Shown: positions 2,447 to 20,556 of the stretch, piece after piece
Layout: the number at the start of each line of letters is the position of its first letter
Numbering within the stretch: position 1 is the stretch's first letter
Notes under the pieces: model-generated
Databases searched by the model: none
Seen by the model: only the letters and a program-made list of their open reading frames with translations
What the model was told of the DNA's origin: nothing
Program-made: the position numbers and the translations under genes
Source: a virus
Length of the DNA: 20,556 bases
Direction: 5' to 3' (one strand)
IMG/VR virus record: IMGVR_UViG_3300030116_007672
Span: 1 to 20,556 of that record

Positions 2447-2749
2447 ATGGCTAAATATGCGTCAGGAAAACACGCTTACGCGATATCAGACCGCTCAGGA
2501 TTTCGATATAGATATCGTGACATGCGAAAAGAATGGAATGGTTTGTTAGTAGGTAAAGATGAATACGAACCCAAACAACCACAATTAGGCCCGTTTCGGT
2601 CAGACGTGGATCCACAAGCTTTGCGTGACGCAAGACCAGATCGTAAAGAACCAATGAAGGTGTACGTCGGCATACCTAATGTAGAGGACATGAAGCCAAG
2701 ACCTTTACAGGGATATGGGATTGTTGGAGAGGTGACGGTGACAACATGA
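2447..2749 (+). CDS. Conserved small virion-type protein (MAKYASGKHAYAISDRSG family)
   Basis: This 100-residue protein begins 'MAKYASGKHAYAISDRSG', then FRYRYRDMRKEWNGLLVGKDEYEPK and VDPQALRDARPDR. I recognise this N-terminal pattern from many marine phages, always next to connector genes and sometimes annotated as a structural protein. I chose the ATG at 2447 over the longer in-frame start at 2369. The extra 26 residues overlap the adaptor gene and look like a frame shadow (MTEPPTRTETERP), and the conserved pattern begins exactly at 2447. It is rich in Arg, Lys and Pro with no membrane segment. It sits between two adaptor-like genes, so a minor connector or virion role is likely but unproven. 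Its stop overlaps the next start (ATGA). Confidence 0.75.
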   Translation: MAKYASGKHAYAISDRSGFRYRYRDMRKEWNGLLVGKDEYEPKQPQLGPFRSDVDPQALRDARPDRKEPMKVYVGIPNVEDMKPRPLQGYGIVGEVTVTT

Positions 2750-3393
2750 GTTTTACTTTCGCGCAACTCAAAACAGCTTTACAAGATTACACAGAAAACG
2801 AAGAAACGAGTTTCGTCAATAATCTGCCTGTCTTCATTAGGCAAGCAGAAGAAAGGATATTGAAAAATGTTCAGTTGACGCTATTTCGAAAAAATGTGTC
2901 TGGAACGATTGCCTCCGGTAGTCTGTACTTAAATCTACCCACGGATTTTTTAGCTCCGTTTTCTTTTGCCGTTACAAGCAACAGTGAGAAAATATTTTTA
3001 GATTTCAAAGATGTAAACTTTTTACAATCTTTCAATCCGAACCCAGCAACCACAGGGGTTCCTCGATACTATGCACTTTTTGATGTTGAAAATTTTATAT
3101 TAGCGCCGACAGCAAATGCTGATTTAGAATCGGAATTACATTACTACTACCGACCGGCGAGTTTAACAGCAGGAGCCGATTCGGGGACCACATGGTTGAG
3201 TGAGAACGCGGAGGTTGCCCTCCTTTATGGGTCATTGATCGAATGTTATACTTATATGAAAGGCGAAAACGATTTGATGCAACTGTACGATAAAAAGTTT
3301 ATAGAAGCTTTGTCAGCCTTGAAAGGTTTCGGCGAGGCGAAAGAAGTTACAGATGCTTATAGGACTGGACTTGTAGTGAGGCAGAAAACCTGA
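2746..3393 (+). CDS. Phage adaptor protein 2 (SU10-adaptor / tail tubular A-like)
   Basis: This 215-residue protein opens with a helical block, 'TFAQLKTALQDYTENEETSF' then FIRQAEERIL (about 4-39). A beta-rich centre follows with GTIASGSLYLNLPTDFLAPFSF (53-74). Further on are GVPRYYALFD, FILAPTANAD and ELHYYYRPASL, then TTWLSENAEVALLYGSLIECYTYMKGE (about 148-174). The terminal helix ends in GEAKEVTDAYRTG. This order matches the adaptor family described for podoviruses such as SU10, by memory rather than search. The likely role is a ring that joins portal to tail nozzle. Two adaptor-like genes (this and 1780-2445) suggest a two-layer neck, such as adaptor plus stopper. It starts inside the previous stop (ATGA), with GAGGTGA upstream. 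Confidence 0.77.
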   Translation: MSFTFAQLKTALQDYTENEETSFVNNLPVFIRQAEERILKNVQLTLFRKNVSGTIASGSLYLNLPTDFLAPFSFAVTSNSEKIFLDFKDVNFLQSFNPNPATTGVPRYYALFDVENFILAPTANADLESELHYYYRPASLTAGADSGTTWLSENAEVALLYGSLIECYTYMKGENDLMQLYDKKFIEALSALKGFGEAKEVTDAYRTGLVVRQKT

Positions 3394-4459: not shown

Positions 4460-5971
4460 ATGGCTACTTATGTAAATGATTTGAGGTTGACTGAGCTTGC
4501 CACGGGTGAGGGTTCAGGAACTTGGGGTACAACAACAAATACCAACTTGGAACTCATTGGTGAGGCGCTTAGTTTCGGCACAGAAGCTGCGTTTAGCTCT
4601 GATGCGAATGCGACAACCACGGTTGCTGACGGTTCTACTGATCCGGCCCGTTCTTTTTATTACAAAGTAACGTCTGGAGCCACTTTATCCGCAACAAGAG
4701 AACTGACAATTGCACCGAACACAGTAAGCCGGGTCATGCTGATAGAAAACGCGACCACCGGCTCACAAATCATTACTATCAAACAAGGCTCTGGCGCGAC
4801 TGTAAACATCCCTAACGGGGGTGTAAAAATGGTTTATCTCGATGGAGCAGGTTCGGGTGCCGCCGTGGTTGAATCCACGGTGAATTTGGATTTGACTGGC
4901 ACGACAACCGCAGCAACCATAACCGCGTCTGGAGTTATTACTGGAGCCACTATTGAAGCCACTGGAGACACCTCTGCTGGTGATAATGCCGCTTTAGGTT
5001 TCACGTCGGCAGAAGGTGCTATATTGACTGGGCAAGGCTCCTCGAATGACGTAACAATTAAAAACGATGCAGACTCTGCTGTACTTCAAGTGCCGACAGG
5101 CACTACAAATGTAGATGTGGTTGGAGATTTGACTGCGGCCTGTTTTATCCCAGATGGCGATACTGCCTCCGGCGATTCGGCTGCCATAGGTTTCACCGCC
5201 GCAGAAGGGATTATTGTCACCGGTCAGGGTTCTACCTCTGACGTGACACTAAAAAATGACGCTGATGGCACCGTTTTAACAATTCCAACAGGTACAACAA
5301 ACGTCGATATTGTTGGCGATGTTACGGCAGCAACGGTCAATGCAGATGGCGATACTTCTGCGGGTGACAATGCCGCAATGGGATATACGGCCGCTGAAGG
5401 TTTGATTCTGACGGGACAAGGTTCTACGAACGATGTCACGATCAAAAACGATGCAGACGGCGACGTAATGGCAATCCCTACAGGGGGCACCGATACAAAC
5501 TTTCATGGTAACGTCAACATTTTAGCCCAAGGTGATTTGCGCCTCCAAGATAGTAGCGGAGGTCAATATGTCGCTCTACAAGCACCGGGCACCGTAGCTA
5601 GTAATGTCACTCTTACCTTACCTGCGAACGATGGTGACTCTGGGCAATTCTTACAAACAGATGGTGACGGGGTTCTCTCTTTCGCGGCGGCAGGTGGAGC
5701 TTATACAGCTTGGGCAGTAAAAACTGGAAATTTTACTGCGACTGCTGGAGACCAACTTATTGTAAATGCTTCTGGCGCGACAACGATTACGTTACCGGCA
5801 TCGTCCAGTGCGGGGGATACCGTCGTCATAAAAGCAACTGGTGGCGGGACGGTGACCATAGGAAGAAATTCACAAAATATCAACAGCACAGCAGCCGATG
5901 GAACTTTACTCAGTGGAAGCTCTGTGCAACTGGTTTTTGTAGACTCAACAATCGGCTTTCTCGAACTCTAG
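4460..5971 (+). CDS. Tail fibre protein with three 64-residue repeats
   Basis: This 503-residue protein starts with NDLRLTELATGEGSGTWGTTTNTNLELIGEAL, an N-terminus I recognise from marine phage tail fibres, probably the part that attaches to the tail. Residues 60-145 are a beta-rich domain. Residues 169-360 are three tandem 64-residue repeats (GDTSAGDNAA...AEG..LTGQGS..DVT.KNDAD..V..PTG), the third diverging at its end. A C-terminal module follows: LRLQDSSGGQYVALQAP, VTLTLPANDGDSGQFLQTDGDG, then TLPASSSAGDTVVIKATGGGTVTIG. Such modules fold as beta-structured trimers in known fibres. There is no enzymatic depolymerase motif. AAGGAG at 4443-4448 lies 11 bases before the ATG. It is followed by the glycine-rich protein, chaperone and oxygenase, apparently one cassette. 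Confidence 0.83.
   Translation: MATYVNDLRLTELATGEGSGTWGTTTNTNLELIGEALSFGTEAAFSSDANATTTVADGSTDPARSFYYKVTSGATLSATRELTIAPNTVSRVMLIENATTGSQIITIKQGSGATVNIPNGGVKMVYLDGAGSGAAVVESTVNLDLTGTTTAATITASGVITGATIEATGDTSAGDNAALGFTSAEGAILTGQGSSNDVTIKNDADSAVLQVPTGTTNVDVVGDLTAACFIPDGDTASGDSAAIGFTAAEGIIVTGQGSTSDVTLKNDADGTVLTIPTGTTNVDIVGDVTAATVNADGDTSAGDNAAMGYTAAEGLILTGQGSTNDVTIKNDADGDVMAIPTGGTDTNFHGNVNILAQGDLRLQDSSGGQYVALQAPGTVASNVTLTLPANDGDSGQFLQTDGDGVLSFAAAGGAYTAWAVKTGNFTATAGDQLIVNASGATTITLPASSSAGDTVVIKATGGGTVTIGRNSQNINSTAADGTLLSGSSVQLVFVDSTIGFLEL
4964..5539 (+). repeat. Three tandem 192-base (64-codon) repeats in the tail fibre gene
   Basis: The units start at 4964, 5156 and 5348, each opening with codons for GDT(S/A)(A/S)GD(N/S)AA. 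All three keep the in-frame 192-base period. The third matches well for about 46 codons and then changes to a different sequence (GGTDTNFHGNVNILAQ). Such in-frame repeats set fibre length and can expand or contract by recombination. Confidence 0.85.
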
Positions 5972-7341: not shown

Positions 7342-7659
7342 ATGGCTGGCACAAATAGATGGAAAATAAAAGATGGGTTAGGAAACGTCGTCAATACAAT
7401 CATTGCAGACGAAAGTTTTGTAAAACAACATTATTCAAATTATGAAATGTTTGTTCCCATTTTCAGAGAGGTTGATCCAGAAATAAGAGCAAGATCGTGG
7501 AGGAACGGTCAGTTGCGAAAAACGGATGTCAATATAAGACGTTTTGCAGATCATCCTGAAAATGACAAATGGCTTGCTTGGCGCAAAACTCTTAGGGATT
7601 GGCCTGCCACAACGGATTTTCCAAAAACTTTGCCGACACAACCTTATACTGATAAATGA
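7342..7659 (+). CDS. Tail fibre assembly / tail assembly chaperone-like protein
   Basis: This 105-residue protein has an N-terminal half (WKIKDGLGNVVNTIIADESFVKQHY) followed by RARSWRNGQLRKTDVNI (about 49-65). It then has WLAWRKTLRDWP (77-88) and DFPKTLPTQP (92-101). The pattern RN..L..TD - W...R..LRD.P - (D)FP..(L)P matches the small phage tail assembly chaperone family whose genes follow tail-fibre genes. Such chaperones are thought to help fold or trimerise fibre proteins. The position directly after the glycine-rich fibre supports the call. AGGAGA at 7330-7335 is 6 bases from the ATG. The stop overlaps the oxygenase start by four bases (ATGA), so the two are probably made together. Confidence 0.78.
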   Translation: MAGTNRWKIKDGLGNVVNTIIADESFVKQHYSNYEMFVPIFREVDPEIRARSWRNGQLRKTDVNIRRFADHPENDKWLAWRKTLRDWPATTDFPKTLPTQPYTDK

Positions 7660-8306
7660 AAGAGGTGCTTTTCAACACCCCAGATCAGCCTTGTTTTATA
7701 GGGGCTTGGTACTTACCTCAAATATCTATTTGTGATCGAATTATTGCTGCATATGATTCAGGTTCATTGCAAAAAGGAGAAGGGCGTTTAGGTGCCCATA
7801 AAGGCGATCCGAAGGGGCAGGTAAAGAAAACTATGAAAGACTCTATAGATGCAAGTCTTCTAAAAAGACCTGATCTAATTGACGATTTTACAGCAAATCT
7901 TTTGGCTGTTTTGGAACAGTATAAACAAAAATTTTTCTATGCAAATGAAGTAGAAACTTTCGTTGTAGATGACTTGAACATCCAAAAATACCCGAAACAA
8001 ACAGGAGGTTATCATGCATGGCATGCCGAGAGGCAAGGAAACAACTCTCGACATCTTGTTTGGATGACTTATTTGAATGATATTGAAGAGGGTGGTGAAA
8101 CTGAATTTTATTATCAGAAGCTAAAAGTAAAGCCACGCAAAGGATTAACTCTGATTTGGCCTGTCGATTGGACGCACACCCACAAGGGACATATCGCGCC
8201 AAACGAAGAAAAAATGATTATTACAGGATGGTTTAGCTTCTTGGAGCAGCAGCCTACTGTTGAAGAAATTGATAAAATGAAAAAAATCCAACCCGTAGCG
8301 GCATAA
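7656..8306 (+). CDS. 2-oxoglutarate/Fe(II)-dependent dioxygenase, prolyl 4-hydroxylase-like
   Basis: This 216-residue protein fits a single double-stranded beta-helix domain. The candidate iron ligands are His123 and Glu125 in the 'GYHAWHAE' stretch (118-125) and the distal His176 in WTHTHKG. Lys186, ten residues after His176, sits where the 2-oxoglutarate carboxylate-binding Arg/Lys is expected. Other family marks are WMTYLNDIEEGGETEFYYQ (136-154) and KGLTLIWPVDWTH (162-174). The family couples 2-oxoglutarate decarboxylation to hydroxylation of a substrate. The first motif is HxE rather than the common HxD, as seen in some phage members I recall. The substrate is unknown: fibre protein, host protein and nucleotide targets are all possible. 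It overlaps the chaperone gene (ATGA) and sits inside a structural block. Confidence 0.88.
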   Translation: MKEVLFNTPDQPCFIGAWYLPQISICDRIIAAYDSGSLQKGEGRLGAHKGDPKGQVKKTMKDSIDASLLKRPDLIDDFTANLLAVLEQYKQKFFYANEVETFVVDDLNIQKYPKQTGGYHAWHAERQGNNSRHLVWMTYLNDIEEGGETEFYYQKLKVKPRKGLTLIWPVDWTHTHKGHIAPNEEKMIITGWFSFLEQQPTVEEIDKMKKIQPVAA

Positions 8307-8317
8307 CAAGGTGAAGT

Positions 8318-10237
8318 ATGCCTTTAACCAAATTAGAGTTTAGACCGGGTGTAAACAGAGAAACCACTTCTTATGCAAACGAGGGAGGCTGGTTCGACTG
8401 TGACAAAGTGCGTTTTCGCTTCGGCACCCCAGAAAAAATTGGTGGTTGGACCAAGCTTTCAAGCATTTCTTTCCTCGGCACAGCGCGAAACATTCATTCA
8501 TTCGCAGCACTTGATGGTGAGCGGTATCGAGGTCTAGGCACCCATCTGAAATATTTCATTGAAAATGGTGGCGCTTACGCAGATGTAACCCCGTTACGAG
8601 TAACGACAAGCGCCGGAGATGTTACGTTTGCTGCGACAAACGGGTCCTCGACTATCACTGCAACGGACGCGGACCACGGTGCAATCAAAGGTGATTTTGT
8701 TACTTTTTCTGGCGCTGCATCCTTGGGCGGTAACATCACTGCCGATGTGCTCAACCAAGAATATCAAATCGACACGGTTGTAAATAGTAATTCGTATACT
8801 TTCACTGCACGTACCGCAAGCACCACAATAGCTGACATTACGGTCGATGGTGAACTAAGCCCAACCGAAGTCACCGCCAGTGGATCAGACACTGGGAATG
8901 GTGGCGGCAGTATCGTCGGTGCGTATCAGGTCAATATAGGTTTGAATACCTCGGTTCTCGGCACTGGTTGGGGCGCGGGTTCGTGGGGTCGGAGCACATG
9001 GGGATCAGCCGCAAGTCTTGCTGTAGCCGGTAACTCCATCCGCATCTGGGAGCATGATAACTTTGGTGAGGATCTGCTATTCAACGCCCGTGACGCAGGA
9101 ATCTTTTATTGGGACGAAAGCGGCGGTACGTCGGCAAGGGCGGTTGCTTTGAAGGACGTTGCTGGAGCGGATGCAGAGACCCCCACGATAGCAAAACAAG
9201 TGCTGGTCTCCGATAACGATAAGCACGTTCTCGTCTTTGGTTGTGACGCTGAAACGAGTATTGGCACTCAAGACCCTTTGCTGATTCGTTTTTCTTCTTC
9301 TGGTAGTTTGACGACATGGAAAGCGGAGGTAACAAATTCTGCTGGCGATTTACGCATAGGTTCTGGCACCAAGATTGTCAAAGCTGTCGAAACAAAACAA
9401 CAGATCGTCGTGATCACGGACGTTGGCGTTCATGCCCTTCAATTTATTGGTCCTCCGTTTACCTTCGGCATTCAACAGGTCGGTGAAAACACAACGATAG
9501 CGGGACCGTTATCTGTGACTGCTGTGGATGACAACGTGTTTTGGATGGGTTTGGGCGATTTTTACGTCTACACTGGACAAACGCAGAAACTGCCGTGCTC
9601 GGTCAAAAGTTATGTTTTCAATGATTTCAACGAGGCGCAAAGAGAAAAAGTTATTGCTGGATCTAATAGTGCTTTTTCAGAGGTTTGGTGGTTTTACCCG
9701 TCTGCAACGAGCGAAGAAAATGATCGGTATGTGGTCTATAACTATCTTGAAAAAACATGGTATTTCGGTAATTTATCGCGCACTGCATGGATTGACAAAG
9801 GTATTGAAGACGATCCGACGGCTGCCAGCGCCGGGTTCTTATATCGGCACGAGGTAGGAAACGATGATGGTAGTACAAACCCAGTATCCTCTATTACGTC
9901 TTTCATTGAAAGTAGTCAAATCGACATCGGAGATGGTGATCGTTTCATGTTTATGCGTCGTGTCGTACCTGATTTAACGTTTGTGGGTTCTACGTCAGAC
10001 GCGCCCTCGGCTAATTTTACGATGAAAGCAAGAAATTTTCCCGGTGGTAATTACTTACAATCAGACGAAAACAGTGTCACTCGTTCTGCAACGTCGCCGG
10101 TTGAACAGTTTACAGATCAGGTATTCGTGCGGCTGCGGGGCCGGTCCTTTGCTGTGCGTGTAGAGTCCACGGCCCAAGGAACACAATGGCGATTTGGCGC
10201 ACCGCGAGTCGATATTCGCCCGGACGGTAGACAATAA
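8318..10237 (+). CDS. Tail nozzle / tail tubular protein B-like (hub) protein
   Basis: This 639-residue protein opens with the marine-phage pattern FRPGVNRETTSYANEGGWFD followed by VRFRFGTPEKIGGW (about 8-44), then LGTARNIHSFAALDG and LGTHLKYFIENGG. Residues about 95-210 look like a separate beta-rich insert (ITATDADHGAIKGDFVTFSGA). The main body resumes at GWGAGSWGRSTWG (218-229). Later blocks include IKAVETKQQIVVITDVGVHALQF-type strands and VFWMGLGDFYVYTGQTQKLPCSVK. Position and size suit the podovirus nozzle (T7 gp12, P22 gp10 class), a hexameric beta-propeller-like tube below the adaptor ring. This is known biology for the class and inferred for this protein. AAGGTG at 8308-8313 is 4 bases before ATG. 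Confidence 0.78.
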   Translation: MPLTKLEFRPGVNRETTSYANEGGWFDCDKVRFRFGTPEKIGGWTKLSSISFLGTARNIHSFAALDGERYRGLGTHLKYFIENGGAYADVTPLRVTTSAGDVTFAATNGSSTITATDADHGAIKGDFVTFSGAASLGGNITADVLNQEYQIDTVVNSNSYTFTARTASTTIADITVDGELSPTEVTASGSDTGNGGGSIVGAYQVNIGLNTSVLGTGWGAGSWGRSTWGSAASLAVAGNSIRIWEHDNFGEDLLFNARDAGIFYWDESGGTSARAVALKDVAGADAETPTIAKQVLVSDNDKHVLVFGCDAETSIGTQDPLLIRFSSSGSLTTWKAEVTNSAGDLRIGSGTKIVKAVETKQQIVVITDVGVHALQFIGPPFTFGIQQVGENTTIAGPLSVTAVDDNVFWMGLGDFYVYTGQTQKLPCSVKSYVFNDFNEAQREKVIAGSNSAFSEVWWFYPSATSEENDRYVVYNYLEKTWYFGNLSRTAWIDKGIEDDPTAASAGFLYRHEVGNDDGSTNPVSSITSFIESSQIDIGDGDRFMFMRRVVPDLTFVGSTSDAPSANFTMKARNFPGGNYLQSDENSVTRSATSPVEQFTDQVFVRLRGRSFAVRVESTAQGTQWRFGAPRVDIRPDGRQ

Positions 10238-10533
10238 TGGCACGAGTGCTGACTTTTCTGCCCCTGCCAAACCCGCCCGACGAGTATACGCAGGACTACA
10301 TGGCACAATTGATACGGACGTTCTCCGTGTTTCAGGAGCAGCTAAACACGCCCGGTGAAGCACGGGCCACGGGCATAACGCTCACAAATTTACAGACAGA
10401 CGACAGTGGCTTGGAAACAGGCGCTGTGTTTGAACATGATGGGGTTTTACGGATCCCAAAAACAAATTCACCTTTTGTACGAGGTTCGGTGGGAACAAGT
10501 GCAGTCGGATCAGTCACGGTAACAATTAGCTAA
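10237..10533 (+). CDS. Small conserved protein following the nozzle gene
   Basis: This 98-residue protein begins LTFLPLPNPPDEYTQDYMAQLIRTFSVFQEQLNTPGEARATGITLTNLQTDDSGLETGAVFEHDG when read in blocks, and ends GSVGTSAVGSVTVTIS. The first 35 residues look like a short helix with 'PNPPDEY...YM.QL.R...'. The rest is beta-rich (GLETGAVF, GVLRIP). I recognise this as a family that regularly follows the large nozzle-type protein in marine phages. A small structural or tail-completion role is likely, and no function is established to my knowledge. It overlaps the nozzle stop by one base (TAATG) and is followed by the only sizeable gap in the window. Confidence 0.72.
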   Translation: MARVLTFLPLPNPPDEYTQDYMAQLIRTFSVFQEQLNTPGEARATGITLTNLQTDDSGLETGAVFEHDGVLRIPKTNSPFVRGSVGTSAVGSVTVTIS

Positions 10534-10537
10534 CTCG

Positions 10538-10566
10538 TAGACTGAATAAACTAAACTAAGTACAAT
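10538..10566 (+). promoter_or_regulatory. Candidate sigma70-like promoter ahead of the ejection-protein block
   Basis: TAGACT at 10538-10543 (4 of 6 to TTGACA) and TACAAT at 10561-10566 (5 of 6 to TATAAT) are separated by exactly 17 bases of A/T-rich sequence. They lie in the only intergenic gap longer than about 20 bases. A start near 10573 would give a short leader before the gene at 10601. A match this good can occur by chance, so this is only a candidate. Confidence 0.35.
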
Positions 10567-10586
10567 GGTCAGAAATGATCATTGTC

Positions 10587-10593
10587 GGTGGAG
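10587..10593 (+). promoter_or_regulatory. Ribosome binding site that fixes the start of the first ejection-type gene
   Basis: GGTGGAG lies 7 bases before ATG 10601 and 4 bases before ATG 10598. The longer in-frame ATG at 10565 has no Shine-Dalgarno and would place this site inside the coding sequence. I therefore prefer 10601 (or 10598). Confidence 0.6.
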
Positions 10594-10600
10594 CAAGATG

Positions 10601-12604
10601 ATGACGAACACAGCCGAACAGCTTGAAATCGAAGAGGTGCCGTCCGGCGGTATCGGTGATTTTGTAATGTCGGAAGAGGACTTTCGGGTTCTCGAACGGC
10701 AAAACGCCGCCGAAGAATACGGCAATGAAGGCATCGCCCGATTTGAAGATACCGCTAGTCGGATCGCAGCTTACGGTCGTTTTGGTGACGATCAGGTAGC
10801 GCACGTTGAAACTGGCGAGTTGATTGTTCCGCGACAACTGATTGATCAAAGCCCCGAACTCAAAAATTCTATTTTCCAACACTTACGCGAAGCCGGTATC
10901 GAAGACCCGGAGCGTTATGTTGTGGGTAATGCAGAAAACTCTATCAACCCTGAAACCGGTTTGATGGAGTTCGGTTTTTTCTCCAAGATATTCAAAGGCA
11001 TCAAAAAAGCATTCAAGAAGATCGGTAAGGTTCTCAAAAAGGCTGCGCCTATTATTTTGAGTGTTGCTTTGGCAGGGCCTTTAGGTGCTGTATATGGAGG
11101 TATGGTCGGACAGGGTATAGGCACGCTCATTCAAGGGGGCAGTATTAAAGATGCCTTCAAAGCCGCTGCGATAGGCGGTCTCACCGGAGCCGCATTCAGT
11201 GGTATCGGAGGGGCGATTGATCCCAACCAAACCGCTCTGGGAGCCATCCAAGAGTCTTTAGCAAATCCCGGTCTTCGTTTTTCGCAAGCAGGAGCGAATA
11301 TTAAAGATGCTCTCACAGGTCAAGGAGAAGGTGGCTTTTTTAAAACTTTGGCAAGACAACCGGGGGATGCTATACCGACTGATGTACGACAAGCAATAGA
11401 CCCCCTCACAGGAAAACCTTATCCCGAAGCAGTTAAACGGGGAACCATTAGCCCGACAGAAATGGCAGAGATAGATGCTCAAATTGCAAGACAGCAGAGT
11501 CAAACCCTGCCCAAGGATTTTGTTGAAGACCGTGCCACTGGAGATTTAATTCGTGGAGCAACGCCACAGGATGTCAGTGTGCCGGGCGCAGAAAATTTGA
11601 CTAGAGGCCAAAATTTCAGAATTGAAACATTTGATCCAGACGCTCCTCTTCAAGCTGCTGCCAACACCGAGTCAATTCAAGAGAAATACATCAAAGCTCT
11701 TAGTGAAGGGAGAACGCGGCCCACACGGCTTCTGTCAGACACAACTAATTTAAGCGACGTAGGCACAACACCCGCAGGGACTGGTGTTTCTTCTGACGTG
11801 AGTGTTACACGTCCAGATTTTTCACAGCTTGATTTAACCCCAGATAGTTTGAAAGGAGCGTTTGATTCTTTTCCTGAGCTTCCCTTCGAAAGATTCACTC
11901 CGCCACCGGGTGTTCGAGGCACAGCTACAGGTTTCTTAGGCAATTTAGGTGAGGCCGGTAAAGACATCTTGCAAGGCGAGTTCCGTGATTCGTTGACTAA
12001 TTTGAAAGAGGCCTTTTTCCCGAAACTTGTCGGGCAGACTGCTGATGAATTAGCGATTTCAAAAGGTTTCGAAGGGATCACAGATGATCGCCTTACCGAC
12101 GCGGCAAGGACACGACTCATTGACCAAGCTGGTAAAGTCTCTTTGGGACAAAAAGCACTCGCATACGCTCCGGCTGCTGGTCTCGCGGCCCTTGCAGGAG
12201 GTTTTTTTGAAACACCTCCGATGGAAGAAGCAGGTTTAGTTGAAAGAGATGAAGAGGGTAACATCATAAGAGGTGATGATTATCTTGCAGCCGATCCGTT
12301 CCGATTTCGTATCTTTCCAACAGGCTTTCAACCCACTTATCGTCCACCTGTAAATCCTATCGTGCCCTATTCAGCGCAGCGAGTGGCAGAGGGCGGCGAG
12401 ATATTCCCTCGTAGAACAGGGGGCATCATGCCCGATGAAGGGATACCGAACGAAGATAGTGTGAAAGCTATGTTGATGCCCGGTGAGTTTGTGATGACCA
12501 CCACGGCGGTGCGAGGTGCAGGTGACGGGGATCTCAACAAAGGCATCAATAACATGTACTCGGTGATGCGTAATCTTGAAGCACGAGGGAGGGCTATGTC
12601 CTGA
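10601..12604 (+). CDS. Internal virion / DNA-ejection-type protein with amphipathic cationic segment
   Basis: The protein has 667 residues from ATG 10601; ATG 10598 and 10565 are alternatives. The N-terminal 115 residues are acidic and include 'VAHVETGELIVPRQLIDQSP'. Residues about 126-178 are striking: a Lys-rich amphipathic helix (FFSKIFKGIKKAFKKIGKVL) runs directly into hydrophobic, glycine-zipper sequence (IILSVALAGPLGAVYGGMVGQGIG), with a second Gly/Ala stretch (AAAIGGLTGAAFSGIGGAI) at about 188-206. The middle is Pro/Thr-rich and probably flexible. The C-terminus has MPDEGIPNEDSVKAMLMPGEF then a helical tail; 'MPGEFV' is common in marine phage internal or tape-measure-type proteins. I infer a capsid-stored protein that inserts in the host envelope during DNA entry. 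Its stop overlaps the next ATG (TGATG). Confidence 0.68.
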   Translation: MTNTAEQLEIEEVPSGGIGDFVMSEEDFRVLERQNAAEEYGNEGIARFEDTASRIAAYGRFGDDQVAHVETGELIVPRQLIDQSPELKNSIFQHLREAGIEDPERYVVGNAENSINPETGLMEFGFFSKIFKGIKKAFKKIGKVLKKAAPIILSVALAGPLGAVYGGMVGQGIGTLIQGGSIKDAFKAAAIGGLTGAAFSGIGGAIDPNQTALGAIQESLANPGLRFSQAGANIKDALTGQGEGGFFKTLARQPGDAIPTDVRQAIDPLTGKPYPEAVKRGTISPTEMAEIDAQIARQQSQTLPKDFVEDRATGDLIRGATPQDVSVPGAENLTRGQNFRIETFDPDAPLQAAANTESIQEKYIKALSEGRTRPTRLLSDTTNLSDVGTTPAGTGVSSDVSVTRPDFSQLDLTPDSLKGAFDSFPELPFERFTPPPGVRGTATGFLGNLGEAGKDILQGEFRDSLTNLKEAFFPKLVGQTADELAISKGFEGITDDRLTDAARTRLIDQAGKVSLGQKALAYAPAAGLAALAGGFFETPPMEEAGLVERDEEGNIIRGDDYLAADPFRFRIFPTGFQPTYRPPVNPIVPYSAQRVAEGGEIFPRRTGGIMPDEGIPNEDSVKAMLMPGEFVMTTTAVRGAGDGDLNKGINNMYSVMRNLEARGRAMS

Positions 12605-14601
12605 TGGCTACTCAGACTACAGAACAGATTATACGAGAAGATCCGTTAATAGAGGCGTATAAGCTAGGGCTTCTAGCAGACGCAGTGAGTTTAGCGCAAC
12701 AACCCGTGGGTGTGCCTCAATACGACGCTGAAGGTAACATAATCATGGAGCCAGCGGTCGTTGACCCAGAAACAGGAGAGGTCATACGAGAAGCGCGGCC
12801 TTTGTTGCAACTTCCACGACAACAAATAGCCGCCATGACCCCTCTGCAAAGAGAGGCTTTGGCACAGGCAGCAGGAGGCATCGGAGAGTTCAGACCTTTT
12901 CTGCAAGGGGCTGCCGGGACCTTGGGCCAAGCACAATTAGCCACGGCTGGCGCAACAGCACAAGCGCAGCCTTTTCAAACCCGAGCAGCAGAATACTTGG
13001 ATGCTGCCGGTCAAGGCGTAGGAACGCAAGTTTCTGGCGCACAACAAGGCATAACCAGTGCTTTACGCACGGGACTCGGTGACACTCGCGCTGCACAAAG
13101 GGCCGCTGCACAAGCAGCAGCGGGACTTGGCACACGGGGCAGAGAAATCGTTGGACAATTAGGTGCTGATTTAGCCCCGACGACAGGAATTAGCAGGGCG
13201 CTGGCGGGACAGGCAGGGCAACAAATAGGACAAGCCACGCTAGGTGGTTTAGGTGCCTATGGACAGGCTTTGGCAGGTGTTCAGGACGTAGGGCGTGCCG
13301 CAGAGGATGTGCAACGGCAAGCGCGAGAGGGAACGCTATTGGCGGTAGATCGTGGTCGAGCGATTACCGGACAGGCAGCAACAGATTTAGCACGAGCCGG
13401 ACGTTTCGGTATGGGCACTGCGGCGCGTGGTATTGCTGATTTATTCGGCTCGACGGGCGAGTTTGACCCTGCTGCGGCAGAGCGTTTTATGAACCCTTTT
13501 GAGCAACAGGTGGTAGACCAAACGCTTGCTGACATTGCACGACAAGGTGAGATCCAACGACAGCAACAACGAGCACAAGCAGTTGCCGCAGGAGCTTTTG
13601 GTGGTGCCAGAAGCGGTATTATGGAAAGCGAACTGGGACGAAATATTTTAGAACAGCAAGCGAAAGCTGCGTCACAATTACGCAGGGCTGGATTTGAGAG
13701 TGCTTCCCAGAGGGCACAACAAGCGTTTGAAGCACAGCAGCGTCGTCAACAACAAGCCGCACAATTGACGGGCGCGTTAGGTGCCCAAGGTTCACAAGCA
13801 GCAGCAAGAGCGGCACAAGCCGCCGGTGGTTTGGGTTTGTCGGCAGAACAACTGGCTACACAAGGTGAAGGGCTGGCTGCAAGGACAGGGCTGCAAGCAC
13901 AACAACTGCGACAAGCGGGTGCTTTGAGCGGGGGTCAGTTAGGTTTAGCTGCACAAGCACAGGCTGCACAAAATGCTGCAAAAGCTGCCCAGTTGGGTAT
14001 GACCGCTGAACAATTCGCAGCCGCAAACGCACAATCGCTTGCATCCACTGGTCTGAGTTTGGAGCAAGCTGCTGCTCGAACAGGTTTAAGCGCCGCCCAA
14101 TTAGCGGGTCGGTTAGGTCAAAACATCGCACAAATGGGTATGCAGGGAGCGCAAGCTTCCGGTCAACTAGGTTTACAAGGTTTAGGGATGCAAGCAGATA
14201 TTGGTAAAGGTATCGCGGCTCTGGGTAGTGATGTGGCTCGATTGAACCTAGAACAGGGTAGACAGCTTGGAACTTTAGGCCTACAACAAGCGAGTCTTGG
14301 TGAACTTGGTCAAAGTCTAGCGCAACGAGAGCAAGGCTTCTTGTTCGATCTTGGTAAAACAGAGCAAGCACAAAATCAAGCAGTTCTGGAGGCGCAACGA
14401 GCGAACCAGATGGCGCAGATTTACGAGCCTTATCAAAGACTTGGCTTTGTATCTGATATTTACAAAGGTGCGCCCACGTCACAAATGACAGTGACTTCAC
14501 AATCTTCACCTAACGTGTCACCAGCACAAACATTTCTTGGCTTAGGCGTAGCAGGATTGTCTGCGGCGGCAGGGGCAAATAGAGCGGGGTTATTCGGATG
14601 A
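12604..14601 (+). CDS. Ala/Gln-rich helical internal virion-type protein with 11-residue repeats
   Basis: This 665-residue protein has an N-terminal block EDPLIEAYKLGLLADAVSLA then PRQQIAAMTPLQREALAQAAGG (about 12-95). A conserved core at about 294-352 reads MNPFEQQVVDQTLADIARQ...AGAFGGARSGIMESELGRN. From about 360 to 580 the sequence is nearly pure Ala/Gln/Gly/Leu helix with an 11-residue repeat. The C-terminus (YEPYQRLGFVSDIYKG, then SSPNVSPAQTFLGLGVAGLSAAAG) ends in a short hydrophobic helix. These blocks recur in marine podovirus genomes beside the other large proteins, unnamed as far as I know. By position it could correspond to one layer of the T7-type internal core (gp14-gp15-gp16), which is inference. 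It overlaps its neighbours by 1 base at the start and 4 bases at the stop. Confidence 0.7.
   Translation: MATQTTEQIIREDPLIEAYKLGLLADAVSLAQQPVGVPQYDAEGNIIMEPAVVDPETGEVIREARPLLQLPRQQIAAMTPLQREALAQAAGGIGEFRPFLQGAAGTLGQAQLATAGATAQAQPFQTRAAEYLDAAGQGVGTQVSGAQQGITSALRTGLGDTRAAQRAAAQAAAGLGTRGREIVGQLGADLAPTTGISRALAGQAGQQIGQATLGGLGAYGQALAGVQDVGRAAEDVQRQAREGTLLAVDRGRAITGQAATDLARAGRFGMGTAARGIADLFGSTGEFDPAAAERFMNPFEQQVVDQTLADIARQGEIQRQQQRAQAVAAGAFGGARSGIMESELGRNILEQQAKAASQLRRAGFESASQRAQQAFEAQQRRQQQAAQLTGALGAQGSQAAARAAQAAGGLGLSAEQLATQGEGLAARTGLQAQQLRQAGALSGGQLGLAAQAQAAQNAAKAAQLGMTAEQFAAANAQSLASTGLSLEQAAARTGLSAAQLAGRLGQNIAQMGMQGAQASGQLGLQGLGMQADIGKGIAALGSDVARLNLEQGRQLGTLGLQQASLGELGQSLAQREQGFLFDLGKTEQAQNQAVLEAQRANQMAQIYEPYQRLGFVSDIYKGAPTSQMTVTSQSSPNVSPAQTFLGLGVAGLSAAAGANRAGLFG
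13984..14346 (+). repeat. Run of eleven 33-base units encoding an 11-residue helical repeat
   Basis: Cut every 11 codons from 13984, the protein reads AAQLGMTAEQF / AAANAQSLAST, then GLSLEQAAART / GLSAAQLAG-RL, GQNIAQMGMQG, AQASGQLGLQG and so on to SLAQREQGFLF, with aliphatic residues recurring in register. The units are diverged at DNA level, so this is a protein periodicity rather than a recent DNA duplication. An 11-residue period (three helical turns) is typical of hendecad coiled coils. Confidence 0.55.
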
Positions 14602-17009
14602 ACAGACAGTTAATGAGCCGTCAAATGTTCAAGATGGGAGGCGCAGCCTTCCCAGACTTGAGCGGTGATGGGAAAGTAACACAAAAAGATATTTTGATTG
14701 GTCGTGGCGTAATCGAAAAGCAAGAGGGCGGTATGATCCCAGAAACGCCGATGATGGAAGAAACGATGGTCGCGGCCCCCGAACCACCCATGATGCCGCA
14801 AAACTCCATGATGATGCCGCAACAAGGACAAGCTGATCCAGAGGTTTTAGGAGCAATGTTCGATCAACTACAGGGGCAGGTAGATAACATCGAAGGATCG
14901 GACGATCTTGAAGAAATGATGAATGCGGTGCGCGGAGATGTGCAGCCGGTCGAAGCCCGACGAGCAGAACTCGCTGAGTTCGTTGGCCCTGAAGATGCTC
15001 AACAAACACCGGACTCTGTGTTAGCTCTAGTGCAACCAGTAATGCAGCTTGCTAGTATTGATCAGGGTATTGGTAGTTTAGCCGCCGATGAAATGATGGA
15101 CACCCCAGTCGAAGGCCCGATGGCAGAGGGCATAATGTCCACGGTAAACATGGCTTCTGATATGCCAGCAGAAGCCCCAATGATGGAGGTTGGCAGCCAG
15201 CCGCCCGTAAATTTTAACCAAGGGGGTGCCGTACAGTATTTTGCGGATGAAAATCTGCAACGTGTTGCGGGATTCCCTACTGTCGATAATATCCAACAAG
15301 CCTTTGATGAGAGAAAGAATCTTTATCGAGGAATCTTAGGAGACTCCGCCGCAGAAGATCAGGCGATGCTCGATGAGCAAAGACGGCTTTCACAAGCACA
15401 AATGTTGTTTGATGTTGCGAACACCGCGTTAGCGTTTGCGACCCCCGGCTCACGTCAAATGAGTCCTGCTGAACGGTTGGCAGAGGCGGCTCAAGAAACA
15501 CAATTACTCGATAAAATTGGTGCTCGAAGTCAATCCATCCAAGATTTGAAAGATAAACAAGCTTTAGCGCGTCGTTCGACGGCTCAATCATTAGATTTAG
15601 CCGCTTTAGGTGCGGCAGAAAAAGACATCGAAGGTGTACGAAGCATACAAGCGGCTTTGGCGAGGGCTAAAGCGGGACGAGCTTCTAAACCGATGGAGCT
15701 TGTTTTAGCAGACGGTACTGTAAGGTATATAGACGGTAACAACGTAGATTTTGGAGCTATAAACCAAGCAGGGGCAAGAATACAGCCTTTAACAACCCCA
15801 GAAAAAGGTGTCACAAATCTCGTTGACACCAATACCGGCAACGTAAAATTGGTAAAGAAAGCAGATGTAGAACAATTTGTTTTAAACAACCCCACAGGAA
15901 ATTGGGTTGATGCAGCCACTTATAGTATAAAAGACGATGATGACAAGTTCACCGCAAGTCAAGTTACCGCTTTGGTGACAAACGAACCCTTTTTGGAAAG
16001 GTATGCCGAAGGAAAAGCAGATCCTACAAATAGGAACCGATTCCATTTTGCATTGATTGATTTAATTAGCCCGAAATTTTTTGTGGATGCCACAGGAACC
16101 ACCGTTGAAAAACCGGGGCAAGCGTTAATCCCGAGTCAAGTGGAGGCAATTGAAAAAGCAATAGAATTAGACCCAGATTCGGTGCCGAGAGAGCTGCACG
16201 AATATGTGAATCCAAAATACAATGTAGTTGAGCCGTATACCGAAAAAGAGCTAGAAGGAGAACTGGAGGCGTTCCAAGCAGATCAAAGAGCAAAAGGACA
16301 ACCAGAGTTAACTACTCTTAGTAGGGCTACGCTGGAATCACCGAAATTCAAACAAAGTCTTACTGATGCTTCTGGTGCTATAAACCCAGAAAGCCCCGCT
16401 TGGAAGTACATCCCAACCTTCACGATGAAGGAGGTTCAAAGACAAAACGTCCCTGTTGAAATTGCCCAAGGTTTGAGTAGAGTCCTCCCTGCAATCGAGC
16501 GGTTTTTCAAAGAACCGGCTTCTGATATTTTTAATATCAGAGTTGAAGGCGCAACTAGAGACTTAGCAATAGCGGATGTGGCGTTAAGAAATATTCGATT
16601 GGCTTTAGGTCAGTTTTTAACGGCTGATTTACCGGATCGAGATCAAGCCCGTATGTTAGCTGCGGAATACGATAGATTAGAACAAAACCTTGCGGGCTTG
16701 GAACCCGGTATCTTCACGTTTGATGTGACGGGCCTTGAAACGCTCAAGGGTGCGATAAATGCTGTTGCGCGGTCTATGACTGCTATCACCAAACAAGTGC
16801 CAGAGTGGGGGTCACAGCGTACCGATTCAAATCAGGGAAGGGTAGCGAAAAGAAGAGCGGCTTTAGATGAAGCAGAATTGTTGATGGCAGAAATGATAAA
16901 TCTGAAAAAGAATTTAGAATTTTTTACACAAATAAAACAAGATGAACAAGAAAAACCGATGGAAAAAGTAGTTGAAGACCTTTCTTTCAGAAAAACGAAA
17001 ATTGATTAA
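14598..17009 (+). CDS. Large internal virion-type protein with EF-hand/dockerin-like loop at N-terminus
   Basis: The protein has 803 residues. After a Met/Arg-rich start comes FPDLSGDGKVTQKDILIGRG. Asp20, Ser22, Asp24, Thr28 and Asp31 occupy the calcium-ligand positions of a dockerin/EF-hand loop. Residues 45-80 are Met/Pro-rich (MIPETPMMEETM, MMPQNSMMMPQQ). Residues 80-205 are acidic, and 205-345 hold long charged helices (DERKNLYRGIL, AAEDQAMLDEQRRLSQAQML). The remainder is mixed, with KFTASQVTALVTNEPFLERYAEGK-type helices and a charged C-terminus (DLSFRKTKID). There is no membrane segment. I recall the N-terminal loop from many marine phages at this position. The role is unknown; internal core or ejection protein is inferred from size and neighbours. 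It overlaps the upstream stop by four bases (ATGA). Confidence 0.7.
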   Translation: MNRQLMSRQMFKMGGAAFPDLSGDGKVTQKDILIGRGVIEKQEGGMIPETPMMEETMVAAPEPPMMPQNSMMMPQQGQADPEVLGAMFDQLQGQVDNIEGSDDLEEMMNAVRGDVQPVEARRAELAEFVGPEDAQQTPDSVLALVQPVMQLASIDQGIGSLAADEMMDTPVEGPMAEGIMSTVNMASDMPAEAPMMEVGSQPPVNFNQGGAVQYFADENLQRVAGFPTVDNIQQAFDERKNLYRGILGDSAAEDQAMLDEQRRLSQAQMLFDVANTALAFATPGSRQMSPAERLAEAAQETQLLDKIGARSQSIQDLKDKQALARRSTAQSLDLAALGAAEKDIEGVRSIQAALARAKAGRASKPMELVLADGTVRYIDGNNVDFGAINQAGARIQPLTTPEKGVTNLVDTNTGNVKLVKKADVEQFVLNNPTGNWVDAATYSIKDDDDKFTASQVTALVTNEPFLERYAEGKADPTNRNRFHFALIDLISPKFFVDATGTTVEKPGQALIPSQVEAIEKAIELDPDSVPRELHEYVNPKYNVVEPYTEKELEGELEAFQADQRAKGQPELTTLSRATLESPKFKQSLTDASGAINPESPAWKYIPTFTMKEVQRQNVPVEIAQGLSRVLPAIERFFKEPASDIFNIRVEGATRDLAIADVALRNIRLALGQFLTADLPDRDQARMLAAEYDRLEQNLAGLEPGIFTFDVTGLETLKGAINAVARSMTAITKQVPEWGSQRTDSNQGRVAKRRAALDEAELLMAEMINLKKNLEFFTQIKQDEQEKPMEKVVEDLSFRKTKID

Positions 17010-17021
17010 TAGGATATTTCG

Positions 17022-20000
17022 ATGGCTGATTTGAAAGAATTCACAACAATTCCGATCACTCAAGAGGATATTGATTCTCTGATACAGGCAGCGGGACCGG
17101 ACCAAGACCCCACCAAGATACTTGCACAAGAGTTGAGTAAACAATTTACAGACAACGAGGGACTGTCCTACGAAGCGTTGTCCGGCGGCACTTCTCCTTA
17201 TTTACAGGCTTTGAATAGAAAAGCTTTGAACGATGAGCAAATCGTGCAATTTCTAGCCACAAACCCCGATGGCACAGAGATTCAAACAGGGTTTTCAAGA
17301 GCTTTAACGGGCGCTACACGGGAAATTGCACCAACTGTTTTAAGTATTCCAGCCGCTAAAGCCGGGTTTGCTGGCGGACTAAAAGCGCAAGCAGCGATTC
17401 CTGTACTTCCGCCTCCCTTTACACCGGTTTCAGTTGGTTTGAAATTAGCCACACCTGTGGTGACTTCCTTAGTAGGCGGAATTTTTGGTTACGATTTGAC
17501 CAAAGCTGCTCAAGACGAAGTAATTGGTGATGAAGGAGTGGTATTGGCAGATGATAAAGCGGCGGTTACAGCGGGAAAAACCCTTGTAAACGTTGGGGGT
17601 CCGTTGAGTGGACTGAGGGTAATTTCAAAAAAATCGGTAGAGGGAGGTATAGATTTTGGTGGTGCTGCTTACGCAAAAAACCTAGAAGACAAAAGGCAAC
17701 AAGCCATTGCGCTACGAGATGCTCTGTCAAGAGGAGGCCCCTCAATTTCAGCGGTGCGAGGACGAAGAGGTGCCAGAACGTCACAAGAATTAGCAGACCA
17801 AGTAAAAATACCCAAAGAAAAAACTGCTTTGAGCAGAACAGTAAATTATATAGAAAAACAATTCCAAAACGCGCCAAACACGACCTATTCCAGTCAAATC
17901 ATACCAACTGGTACTGCCGCAATCGGTTCGGGAACCGGGGGTTTCATCGCCGAAACTATTGATCCTGATAACGAGGTGCTTCGGTTTAGTTTAGAGCTTG
18001 GAGCGGGCACCGGTAGTGGATTAGTACCTAACTTAATAGGCGCTGTGGTCAACAAATCTGTTATTGGAGAGTTAATTCAAAAGTTGAGCTTCACCCAAGA
18101 GGCACTCCGTAGAAAAGGAGTGAACATCATCCTCGAAGATTTACAAGCTTCCGATGACCCCTTGGATAACGTCGATACTATATTGAAGCTGTTACGAAAC
18201 CCGGAGTTTGACAAAATAGTAAACGAGTTAGCAGAAAACGTTGATACGGATGTTTCGCATTTACGAAGTGTCGTTTTACGGACAAATAGCCCTGTTTTGA
18301 AAGGACACGAGATTGCATTAGACAATGCCACCGGCTCTGGTTTAGCTTCCGAAACACAAAAACAAGGACAAGAGTTCTTTAACTTGTATCGGGATCGTAT
18401 TATTGCTCTTGCAAGAACGGGCGACTCCGCTGCATTACAAATCGCTGCTGATTTGATGAAAGCTAATTTTGAGGCTGGGTTTCAAGCCCGATTGCAAGCG
18501 GCTACTGATGCTCAATTAGCGGCGTTTGAGCGATTAAGTCCTGATGCTGATCGAACTCAAGCTTCGGCAAAGTTTGCTGAAGCTTCTATGAATTTGATGA
18601 GACAAGCACGAGCGCAAGAAAGAAGAATTTATGATAGTTTGCAAGACGCTGAATTAAATGTAAAAGAGTTAGGTGATGCTGGCTTGTTGGCAAGAACAGG
18701 TGATCCTGACAACCCGTCCCCTGTCGAAATGTTAGATGATTTCTTGGAAGAGTTCGAAGGCCTTGATCCCGGTGTAGAGGAAGCTGCAACCGAAAACATC
18801 AAACCGCTTTTGAAATATGCAAGAGATTTACGTGAAAGACTGGTTGGTCAAGCCCAAGGCACTGATGAACAAGGAGTCCCACTACCACCAACTTACGACC
18901 CTGATGACACGATAACGTTGCAAGGTCTCTTCAAAAACCGCAGTGTATTTTTGAATAAAATGAGAGATTTACAAGCAGACCCCACTAAAAAAAGTGCTGC
19001 ACGGAACTACGGTGAATTTTCAGAGTTACTTCTCGACATAGTAGAAAAGCTACCTTTCAGTCAACAGTCAAAATCTGAACAGAAATTAGCAAGAGCATAC
19101 AGCAGGGCGCTCAACGATACTTTTACACGAGCTTTCGCGGGTAGAATACCAGAAAGGACACGAATTGGATCACGCCGAAGACCACCAGAACTTTTGCACA
19201 AAGATTTGTTTGCTGGAGGTGCCGACGCTCTTGGGGTCCGATTATCAGAGTTTGATCAAATAGCTGATTTTTTCAAGAACCAAGGCATCGATACCTCGTA
19301 TACAGATTCACAAGGCAGGGTTTTAGACGGTGTGACTGACGCACAAGATTTATTGAACAGGCTCATCCGCAATGAATTAGGAACAAAATTCGATCCAGTA
19401 ACCGGCGAAATTACCCCCGCAGCTTTGGAAAAATTTAACCGCGACTATGAAGTTATTTTGAATCGGCCAGAGTTTGTGGATATCAAAGGTGCTCTCGCGG
19501 ATGCAGGAGACGCTAGAAGACTGCTTGAAAGTGTCAAAGCGGAGCAACTTGCCGATGAAAAAAGGTTAAAAAAATTAGTTACCTTCCAGCAGCTTTCTTC
19601 CAACGCTACCGAAAGCCCAAGCTCCACCATCAACGCAGCGATTGGTAGCTCCTCGCAAACGCCTATGAAAAATCTCAATAGTTTGTTAGAAGTGGTGAAC
19701 AATCCCGATTTGACCCCCGAACTAAGAGAAGAAGCAATGGCGGGTTTTCAACATGCGTTTTTAGATTGGGCTGTAGGAAGTGCGGGAGGATACACGTTGA
19801 AGGAGGGGAACGTATCTAATTTCAAACCCTCAAAAATGTTCCAAATTTTATTTACTCCGATACCTCGTGCCCAAAACAATCAACAATTGATTACGGTAAA
19901 ACTAAAACCCAAAAAAAATAAAACAGATCCCGATGAGTTTGAGTATGGGGGTTGGTTAGTAGAAAACAAAGTGTTCGATAAAGATTTGGCAGATCGGATT

Positions 20001-20556
20001 CATAAGAGTCTCATACAAATGGTGGGCTATCAGTCGGAGTTAGAGTCCGGCAAGATCAATAAATTGATGAGCGAAGCCAGCGGTATGATGGATTTGTACT
20101 TGACGATGGTGGGTTCTGCGGGTGCGACAGGTCTTGCATCAAGATTGGGTTTGCGAGGAGGGACAGGCAATATAGCAATACCCGCGAGAGGTGCTGCGCT
20201 TGCACGAGATTTATATAACGAGTTACCTAATCAAAAATTAACGAATGTCATGGTAGAGATGTTTGAAGATCCCGAACTTTTTGCTTTGCATCTGCAAAAA
20301 GCAAAAGATAATAAGGAGGCACGGGACTTAGGACAGAGAATTGCAGCAGATATAGGTAATCGTTTTGGTTTGAGAATTCCACGAACCGCGACGAGTTTGA
20401 TCATTCCAACAGATCAAGAACCCGTTACAGACTATGTTGAAGAAGCCCTCCAAGGCGAGACAGAAGAAGCGGTTCCACCGCCGCAAGCTTCATTGCCGCC
20501 TGTGCCACAGTTCATGGACCGCGACACACGACTTCAAGGGGCCGAGACAACACCCA
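17022..20556 (+). CDS. Very large internal virion / DNA-ejection-type protein, 3' end cut by window edge
   Basis: The frame from ATG 17022 stays open for 1178 codons to the right edge, so the stop and C-terminus are missing. AGGA at 17011-17014 lies 7 bases upstream. Residues about 100-165 are hydrophobic and Gly/Ala/Pro-rich (TVLSIPAAKAGFAGGLK, VVTSLVGGIFGYDLTKAA). Two more such stretches lie near 289-311 (IIPTGTAAIGSGTGGFIAE) and 326-349 (LGAGTGSGLVPNLIGAVV). Long charged and Ala/Gln-rich helices follow (about 467-551), then a mixed region to about 1080. The last visible part is Pro-rich (VPPPQASLPPVPQF, about 1152-1165), suggesting the end is near. Size and gene order resemble gp16-type ejection proteins of T7-like phages. 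I see no clear lytic-transglycosylase motif, so any cell-wall activity is unsupported. Confidence 0.72.
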   Translation, partial: MADLKEFTTIPITQEDIDSLIQAAGPDQDPTKILAQELSKQFTDNEGLSYEALSGGTSPYLQALNRKALNDEQIVQFLATNPDGTEIQTGFSRALTGATREIAPTVLSIPAAKAGFAGGLKAQAAIPVLPPPFTPVSVGLKLATPVVTSLVGGIFGYDLTKAAQDEVIGDEGVVLADDKAAVTAGKTLVNVGGPLSGLRVISKKSVEGGIDFGGAAYAKNLEDKRQQAIALRDALSRGGPSISAVRGRRGARTSQELADQVKIPKEKTALSRTVNYIEKQFQNAPNTTYSSQIIPTGTAAIGSGTGGFIAETIDPDNEVLRFSLELGAGTGSGLVPNLIGAVVNKSVIGELIQKLSFTQEALRRKGVNIILEDLQASDDPLDNVDTILKLLRNPEFDKIVNELAENVDTDVSHLRSVVLRTNSPVLKGHEIALDNATGSGLASETQKQGQEFFNLYRDRIIALARTGDSAALQIAADLMKANFEAGFQARLQAATDAQLAAFERLSPDADRTQASAKFAEASMNLMRQARAQERRIYDSLQDAELNVKELGDAGLLARTGDPDNPSPVEMLDDFLEEFEGLDPGVEEAATENIKPLLKYARDLRERLVGQAQGTDEQGVPLPPTYDPDDTITLQGLFKNRSVFLNKMRDLQADPTKKSAARNYGEFSELLLDIVEKLPFSQQSKSEQKLARAYSRALNDTFTRAFAGRIPERTRIGSRRRPPELLHKDLFAGGADALGVRLSEFDQIADFFKNQGIDTSYTDSQGRVLDGVTDAQDLLNRLIRNELGTKFDPVTGEITPAALEKFNRDYEVILNRPEFVDIKGALADAGDARRLLESVKAEQLADEKRLKKLVTFQQLSSNATESPSSTINAAIGSSSQTPMKNLNSLLEVVNNPDLTPELREEAMAGFQHAFLDWAVGSAGGYTLKEGNVSNFKPSKMFQILFTPIPRAQNNQQLITVKLKPKKNKTDPDEFEYGGWLVENKVFDKDLADRIHKSLIQMVGYQSELESGKINKLMSEASGMMDLYLTMVGSAGATGLASRLGLRGGTGNIAIPARGAALARDLYNELPNQKLTNVMVEMFEDPELFALHLQKAKDNKEARDLGQRIAADIGNRFGLRIPRTATSLIIPTDQEPVTDYVEEALQGETEEAVPPPQASLPPVPQFMDRDTRLQGAETTP

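Follow-up and report, generated by a model that had tools for sequence, protein, structure and literature searches.

What does the gene that follows the tail nozzle gene of this virus contribute to DNA entry? The window, by which we mean the whole stretch of 20,556 nucleotides analysed (IMG/VR record IMGVR_UViG_3300030116_007672), is the structural module of a virus known only from this 20.5-kb contig. An initial annotation had singled out the first of its ejection-type proteins, here called X, in which a lysine-rich, antimicrobial-peptide-like helix is followed by a glycine-zipper segment, and had proposed that this part attacks the host membrane. X is encoded on the + strand by an ORF spanning 10565-12604 (679 aa, open from an ATG at 10565). 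Translation probably begins at the ATG at 10601, giving 667 aa, as indicated by a GGAG at 10590 and by the starts of related proteins; residues are numbered along the ORF. The features are the following.

8318..10237, + strand, tail nozzle/hub gene (tubeB, "stabilization protein") upstream of X; matches phrog_3287 (E 3.5e-67) and solved nozzle-type chains
10237..10533, + strand, small conserved gene between the nozzle gene and X, by synteny in most related contigs
10601..12604, + strand, gene X, very probably an ejection-cassette protein, bearing the helix pair (667 aa from the probable start)
10742..10972, + strand, N-terminal domain of X (residues 60-136) with NPxTGLxEF at its end; invariant alignment columns, pLDDT 72-88 in its middle part, dN/dS
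10973..11044, + strand, cationic amphipathic helix of X, GFFSKIFKGIKKAFKKIGKVLKKA (residues 137-160, net +9); moment permutations, conserved Lys/Arg and hydrophobic positions
11045..11134, + strand, hydrophobic glycine-spaced segment of X (residues 161-190); Kyte-Doolittle 1.84, zipper positions small in 45/48, helices predicted at low confidence
11135..11212, + strand, GGSxKDA motif and second Gly/Ala-rich helix of X (residues 191-216), from alignments; G132, G133 and A138 invariant in alignment A2
12383..12601, + strand, C-terminal motif of X, DSVxAMLMPGEFVM (residues 607-679), matching tape-measure PHROG families 37649, 934 and 5448
12604..14601, + strand, gene Y, putative ejection-protein family (AGAFGGxRxG motif), directly downstream of X; phrog_4287 in relatives, synteny
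14598..17009, + strand, gene Z of the cassette, by synteny
17022..20556, + strand, gene W of the cassette, running off the window; a DSL-LC04 relative is annotated "DNA transfer protein", and a gene of Caulobacter phage RW corresponds in position

The architecture of X runs from the N-terminal domain, whose NPxTGLxEF abuts the cationic helix directly, through that helix and a glycine-spaced hydrophobic hairpin to a variable middle and a tape-measure-like C-terminal motif. The interval originally delimited, 10976-11134, is exact, extending from the first base of F138 to the last base of G190, and the second Gly/Ala-rich stretch reported behind it is present at residues 191-216. The lysine count given at the time, about ten, was slightly high: the 20-residue FFSKIFKGIKKAFKKIGKVL has seven, or nine with the KK after it. 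Likewise, the helix is adjacent to the hydrophobic run but does not lead straight into it, as five residues, KKAAP, intervene before IILSV. Inside the hydrophobic segment, GAVYGGMVGQGIG occupies 11084-11122, and GxxxGxxxGxxxG corresponds to residues 174-186.

The neighbours of X bear on its class. The product of the upstream gene matched solved podophage nozzle-type chains (9nwi_Y, E 2e-14; 8zkm_E/8zkk_O, E 2e-4), and its DSL-LC04 counterpart is annotated "stabilization protein". The upstream gene corresponds to tubeB, the presence of which marks marine metagenomic relatives as LUZ24-like podoviruses (PMC10386132). Relatives of Y matched PHROG 4287, "DNA ejection protein", with E-values down to 2e-40, and the Caulobacter phage RW gene at the position of W encodes an SLT transglycosylase domain (lytic transglycosylase, E 2e-17). 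The order nozzle, small gene, X, Y, Z, W was found in essentially every long related contig, and nozzle, X, Y also in phages DSL-LC04, HTVC027P and 023Pt. In phiM5, a distant relative, proteins at cassette positions are annotated as detected in particles; these are neighbours and not X. The nozzle and adaptor genes of the window are of podovirus type, not of a long-tail context, and no tape-measure or tail-tube family was found among its annotated genes; terminase family PF04466, sought in nine related contigs, was found in none. Because of the identities of nozzle, Y and W and the conserved gene order, X is very probably an ejection-type virion protein, and the ejection-type setting assumed at the outset holds. 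A C-terminal S74 endosialidase-type chaperone domain, odd for an internal ejection protein and suggestive of trimeric assembly, is present in the Y relatives of Ochrobactrum phage OH and Octadecabacter DB virus 2.

The P22 gene order gp10, gp26, gp14, gp7, gp20, gp16 corresponds to that of the cassette in the window. X resembles the ejection proteins of P22 (gp7, gp20 and gp16) and T7 (gp14, gp15 and gp16) in its place after the nozzle, in its ejection-type neighbours and in its Gly/Ala-rich hydrophobic stretches, the like of which occur at the C-terminus of P22 gp7 (AIGGGASGAIAGAG), at the N-terminus of T7 gp14 and in T7 gp16. Membrane helices have been reported for T7 gp14 and gp16, and the P22 and T7 ejection proteins include membrane-inserting ones (PMC8954989); a podovirus ejection protein with membrane-like helices is an already known concept. 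In contrast to X, none of the five P22 and T7 ejection proteins examined has a comparable cationic amphipathic helix. No homology of X to the P22 or T7 ejection proteins was detected; X is an extra gene ahead of Y, Z and W. In hhalign comparisons the segment of X matched P22 gp7 with a probability of 4%, and Y, Z and W found no support against P22 gp7, gp20 and gp16 or T7 gp14 and gp16 at single-sequence sensitivity. X itself had no match in Pfam or NCBIfam, and a profile of X against PDB chains returned 0 matches at E<=1. The X family and its combination of parts appear to be new, no description having been found in the literature searched.

Such a combination of parts might be a functionless chance product of Lys/Gly-rich composition, and the window is rich in Lys/Gly low-complexity proteins (e.g. 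777-1079). The hydrophobic moment of residues 137-160 was 0.70-0.85 at 100 degrees and 0.04-0.08 at 160 degrees, the beta periodicity. When the residues of the helix were permuted, the first 18-residue window gave p = 0.0006 for reaching this moment, and none of 20,000 permutations reached it in either of the two windows tested after that one; a helical periodicity this strong is far from what chance would give. Neither 3,000 whole-protein shuffles of X nor the 1,149 other ORFs of 150 aa or more in related contigs yielded a single pair of cationic helix and Gly-rich hydrophobic segment. Within the X family, fragments included, 52 of 93 ORFs passed the strict filter for the pair. The spacing of the glycines, on the other hand, equals chance: four GxxxG were counted against 3.6 in shuffles, which is not above expectation for so high a glycine content (p = 0.51), and GxxxGxxxGxxxG arises in 13% of shuffles. 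Hydrophobicity is borderline for a membrane span, the best 19-residue Kyte-Doolittle mean of X being 1.84 (residues 163-181) and that of the family 1.12-2.15 (median 1.66; at least 1.6 in 48 of 79), and the hydrophobic stretch of X includes proline (GP/AP).

Searches of viral contigs found 41, 24 and at least 258 relatives of X. The pair is kept in about 80 non-redundant marine viral relatives through conservative substitutions. The net charge of the helix region was +4 to +12 (median +9) among the 79 non-redundant IMG/VR sequences that span the segment. Across a 48-sequence alignment, Lys or Arg at positions 141, 144, 148, 151, 155, 158 and 159 of X is kept in 85-100%, with K/R exchanges, and the hydrophobic positions of the helix exchange F/L/I/V; in alignment A2, no variation is seen at K158, at K159 and at several glycines. 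In 45 of 48 aligned sequences each of the four zipper positions is Gly, Ala or Ser, and at least three are Gly in 40. We estimated dN/dS by the method of Nei and Gojobori between X and four close relatives, or two for the C-terminal motif. The values were about 0.05-0.06 in the N-terminal domain, about 0.16-0.21 in the helix/Gly segment where synonymous sites were unsaturated, and 0.02-0.05 in the C-terminal motif, and the three regions are under purifying selection. The middle of X is hypervariable in length and sequence, with 16-17% identity over few alignable sequences. Since the segment is conserved, its chance origin is essentially refuted, and we regard it as hardly credible in view of the moment permutations, the empty background of ORFs, the conservation in relatives and a dN/dS of about 0.2. 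The cationic amphipathic helix followed by a Gly-rich hydrophobic segment is real. A BLAST search with the N-terminal 163 residues of X against 50,697 phage records gave no match at E<=10; cultured phages are therefore almost devoid of this family.

Relatives of altered architecture indicate which parts of X form its core. The X relative of 023Pt has no N-terminal domain and starts exactly at MGFFKKIFK (MGFFKKIFKPVSRVLDKIVP), and HTVC027P gp82, which also has none, opens at or near the cationic/hydrophobic segment (KGVKKAVKGVTRGVKDF...). These minimal relatives and L038 amount roughly to a segment of the X type, a variable middle and the C-terminal motif. On contig L126, from a Verrucomicrobia bin, nozzle, X and Y are present and X has lost the lysines; it retains the N-terminal domain, the Gly-rich segment, GGSxxDAxKSAL and the C-terminal motif. 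L126 is a possible prophage or co-binned virus that would extend the lineage beyond marine phages. Almost no lysines, namely two, are found in the helix region of L038/L040. As distant relatives keep the Gly-rich segment and the C-terminal motif with the lysines lost or weak, the sequences indicate that these two elements are the core of X and that the lysine helix is a feature characteristic of the marine clade. Homologues that lack the segment and keep the rest had been named as evidence against the original proposal; such homologues exist in part for the helix (L126, L038/L040), but not for the hydrophobic part. At the position of X, HTVC023P, Pag-Yong1 and CRP-901 have genes without a strong cationic helix; the X profile does not recover them, and they are only putative homologues.

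Models of X were of low confidence, with an AlphaFold2 mean pLDDT of 49 for X (27 sequences) and 61 for residues 60-236 (48 sequences). They predict the lysine and zipper segments and the second Gly/Ala stretch as helices, together with a small, better-predicted N-terminal unit (pLDDT 72-88). A Foldseek search of the segment model against viral predictions found none below E 0.05, which is uninformative at such model confidence.

How might these parts act? The reading that we prefer assigns X to the virion of LUZ24/P22-like marine podoviruses and would have it delivered into the host envelope before the DNA, together with Y, Z and W. Its C-terminal motif would anchor it in the nozzle/portal channel, much as T7 gp7.3 and tape-measure proteins are fixed in tails by their C-termini, and X would leave early once the tail opens. 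The lysine helix may then dock on the anionic surface of the membrane while the hydrophobic helices, packed through Gly, may insert and associate, so that the membrane would be breached or the DNA channel anchored. Taken as a whole, from ejected X through channel anchoring to membrane docking and insertion, this chain is put forward tentatively, at a little below an even chance.

The comparison with T7 gp7.3 bears on this reading most directly. Like X, gp7.3 has a Lys-rich amphipathic N-terminal helix (moment 0.79, net +9 in 18 residues) followed by a Gly/Ala-rich stretch. Six copies of it line the tail channel and contact the DNA end, with their C-termini anchored on the nozzle, and are ejected; the positively charged N-terminal part was assigned to density encircling the DNA end (PMC11784390). 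By analogy, a tail-channel location with a nozzle-anchored C-terminus is proposed for X, the gene of which adjoins that of the nozzle. The analogy also supplies another function: the lysine helix could bind the leading DNA end in the portal/nozzle channel while the Gly-rich helices pack X there; X would then serve as a scaffold and plug during assembly, be shed at ejection and leave the membrane alone. Since a lysine helix of this kind occurs in the ejected gp7.3, membrane attack has its strongest competitor in DNA contact, which we judge to be somewhat less likely than the membrane reading, though not by much. Among the weak PDB matches of the X profile, gp7.3 was the only natural phage protein (hmmsearch E 0.49), and hhalign aligned the two with E 3e-4 and a probability of 40%; however, the similarity is short, confined to a low-complexity K-rich helix and statistically weak. 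The designed coiled coils among the PDB matches are matches of composition. Moreover, unlike X, gp7.3 has only 99 aa, is encoded upstream of the portal gene, and is without a membrane-length hydrophobic segment such as residues 161-216 of X (Kyte-Doolittle 0.61 vs 1.84).

A third reading starts from the C-terminal motif of X, which it shares with siphophage tape-measure proteins in the form (D)S(I/V)xAMLSxGEFV. The motif, which lies in the C-terminal 75 residues, matched tape-measure PHROGs 37649, 934 and 5448 weakly in X (E 1e-4 to 2e-3) and clearly in relatives, with E down to 6e-9 in WJZ48115, the DSL-LC04 relative, and the segment region weakly matched a tape-measure profile in 2 of 27 members (best E 0.0013). 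X could accordingly be a shortened tape-measure-like protein that fills a short tail lumen, its C-terminal motif organising nozzle assembly and its segment merely packing. We consider this unlikely: the motif spans just about 40-60 residues, a ruler would not be expected to have a middle as variable in length and sequence as that of X (17% identity), and the nozzle type and short tail leave little lumen. X is also shorter than tape-measure proteins, and its podovirus module contains a nozzle gene and adaptors in tandem but lacks a recognised tail-tube gene. The tape-measure-like reading is in any case compatible with the membrane reading, because tape-measure proteins also enter membranes. Glycine-zipper membrane segments have been noted in some of them and suggested to be membrane permeabilisers, and in the T6SS effector Tde1, the N-terminus of which resembles tape-measure proteins, a glycine zipper permeabilises the inner membrane (PMC10240207). 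Tde1, which must cross a target membrane, has GxxxG repeats in a hydrophobic stretch as X does; it is a bacterial effector and X a phage protein, and the likeness is one of segment type. In separate comparisons, 8 of the 27 X proteins of alignment A1 matched PHROG 790, "endolysin" (best E 5e-6), and an internal duplication in X, with the N-terminal domain set against the C-terminal motif (DDxVAHVxxGELIV vs DSVxAMLxxGEFVM), was rejected (hhalign probability 0.8%, E 0.07).

As for the membrane attack proposed initially, a membrane-pore role of X is plausible from its sequence and has the ejection-type setting in its favour, but is weakened by the lysine loss in L126 and L038/L040 and by the DNA-channel helix of T7 gp7.3. 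To call it a distinct type of ejection pore exceeds the evidence, and the idea of a glycine zipper is not new, as it was put forward earlier for tape-measure proteins (PMC10240207).

The N-terminal domain of X, which has no Pfam match, also occurs outside phages. A short form of it (GRxGDTxLAHITPxEA...GGxxNPxTGLPEF) was found in six and seven copies in two alphaproteobacterial bins (L129, L131, L132, L133, L135-L143), and lies behind a peptidoglycan-binding domain in those copies examined. The variable C-terminal parts that follow it include GH108 lysozyme with PG_binding_3, a sub-threshold CHAP match and others; by eye, some of these proteins have MuF-like ends. Collectively, they resemble a family of polymorphic effectors that has a junction domain in common with the ejection proteins of phages. 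Otherwise the domain is rare in bacteria: in 398 genomes of the phylum of the query bin, it was found in none besides the query genome itself, and a literature search for the string TGLPEF found no paper. Conceivably, the domain (GxxxDxxxAHxxxxE...NPxTGLPEF) caps a membrane-active helix and can be removed or switched, the helix being uncovered by proteolytic cleavage at TGLPEF or close to it, and is an envelope-crossing module shared by podovirus ejection proteins and bacterial cell-wall-acting proteins; we think this quite improbable. P22 gp7 also loses its N-terminus by proteolysis.

Marine podoviruses of the X lineage occur in large numbers and have to get through the envelopes of ocean bacteria, and no characterised ejection protein was found among them. 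X is conserved and offers a concrete candidate for the component in contact with the membrane or with the end of the DNA, and its C-terminal motif links podovirus ejection cassettes with siphophage tape-measure proteins. Being real and conserved, it is a good candidate for experiment; since the lysine helix is present in some relatives and missing from others, experiments can separate its role from that of the Gly-rich segment.

Several other features of the window deserve mention. Two tandem SU10-type adaptor (tubeA-like) genes at 1780-2445 and 2746-3393 (Pfam PF24175, E 3e-13 and 5e-22) recur in many relatives and resemble the "dual tubeA" called a peculiarity of Sulfitobacter phage PhiGT1 (PMC10386132). 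A 2OG-Fe(II) oxygenase gene lies between tail genes at 7656-8306 (Pfam E 4e-11), and oxygenases are annotated at comparable places in HTVC027P, HTVC023P, 023Pt and DSL-LC04. The translation of 4460-5971 reads as a fibre-like protein with several copies of a repeat of ~45 residues (SAGDNAALGFTSAEGAILTGQGSSNDVTIKNDADS...). The small Lys/Gly-rich ORF at 777-1079 consists of a 33-base repeat encoding PKGMRKGG units, the ORFs beside it at 211-768 are likewise extremely Lys-rich, and motifs like MFRKGG/MRKGG recur at the start of Z proteins in related phages.
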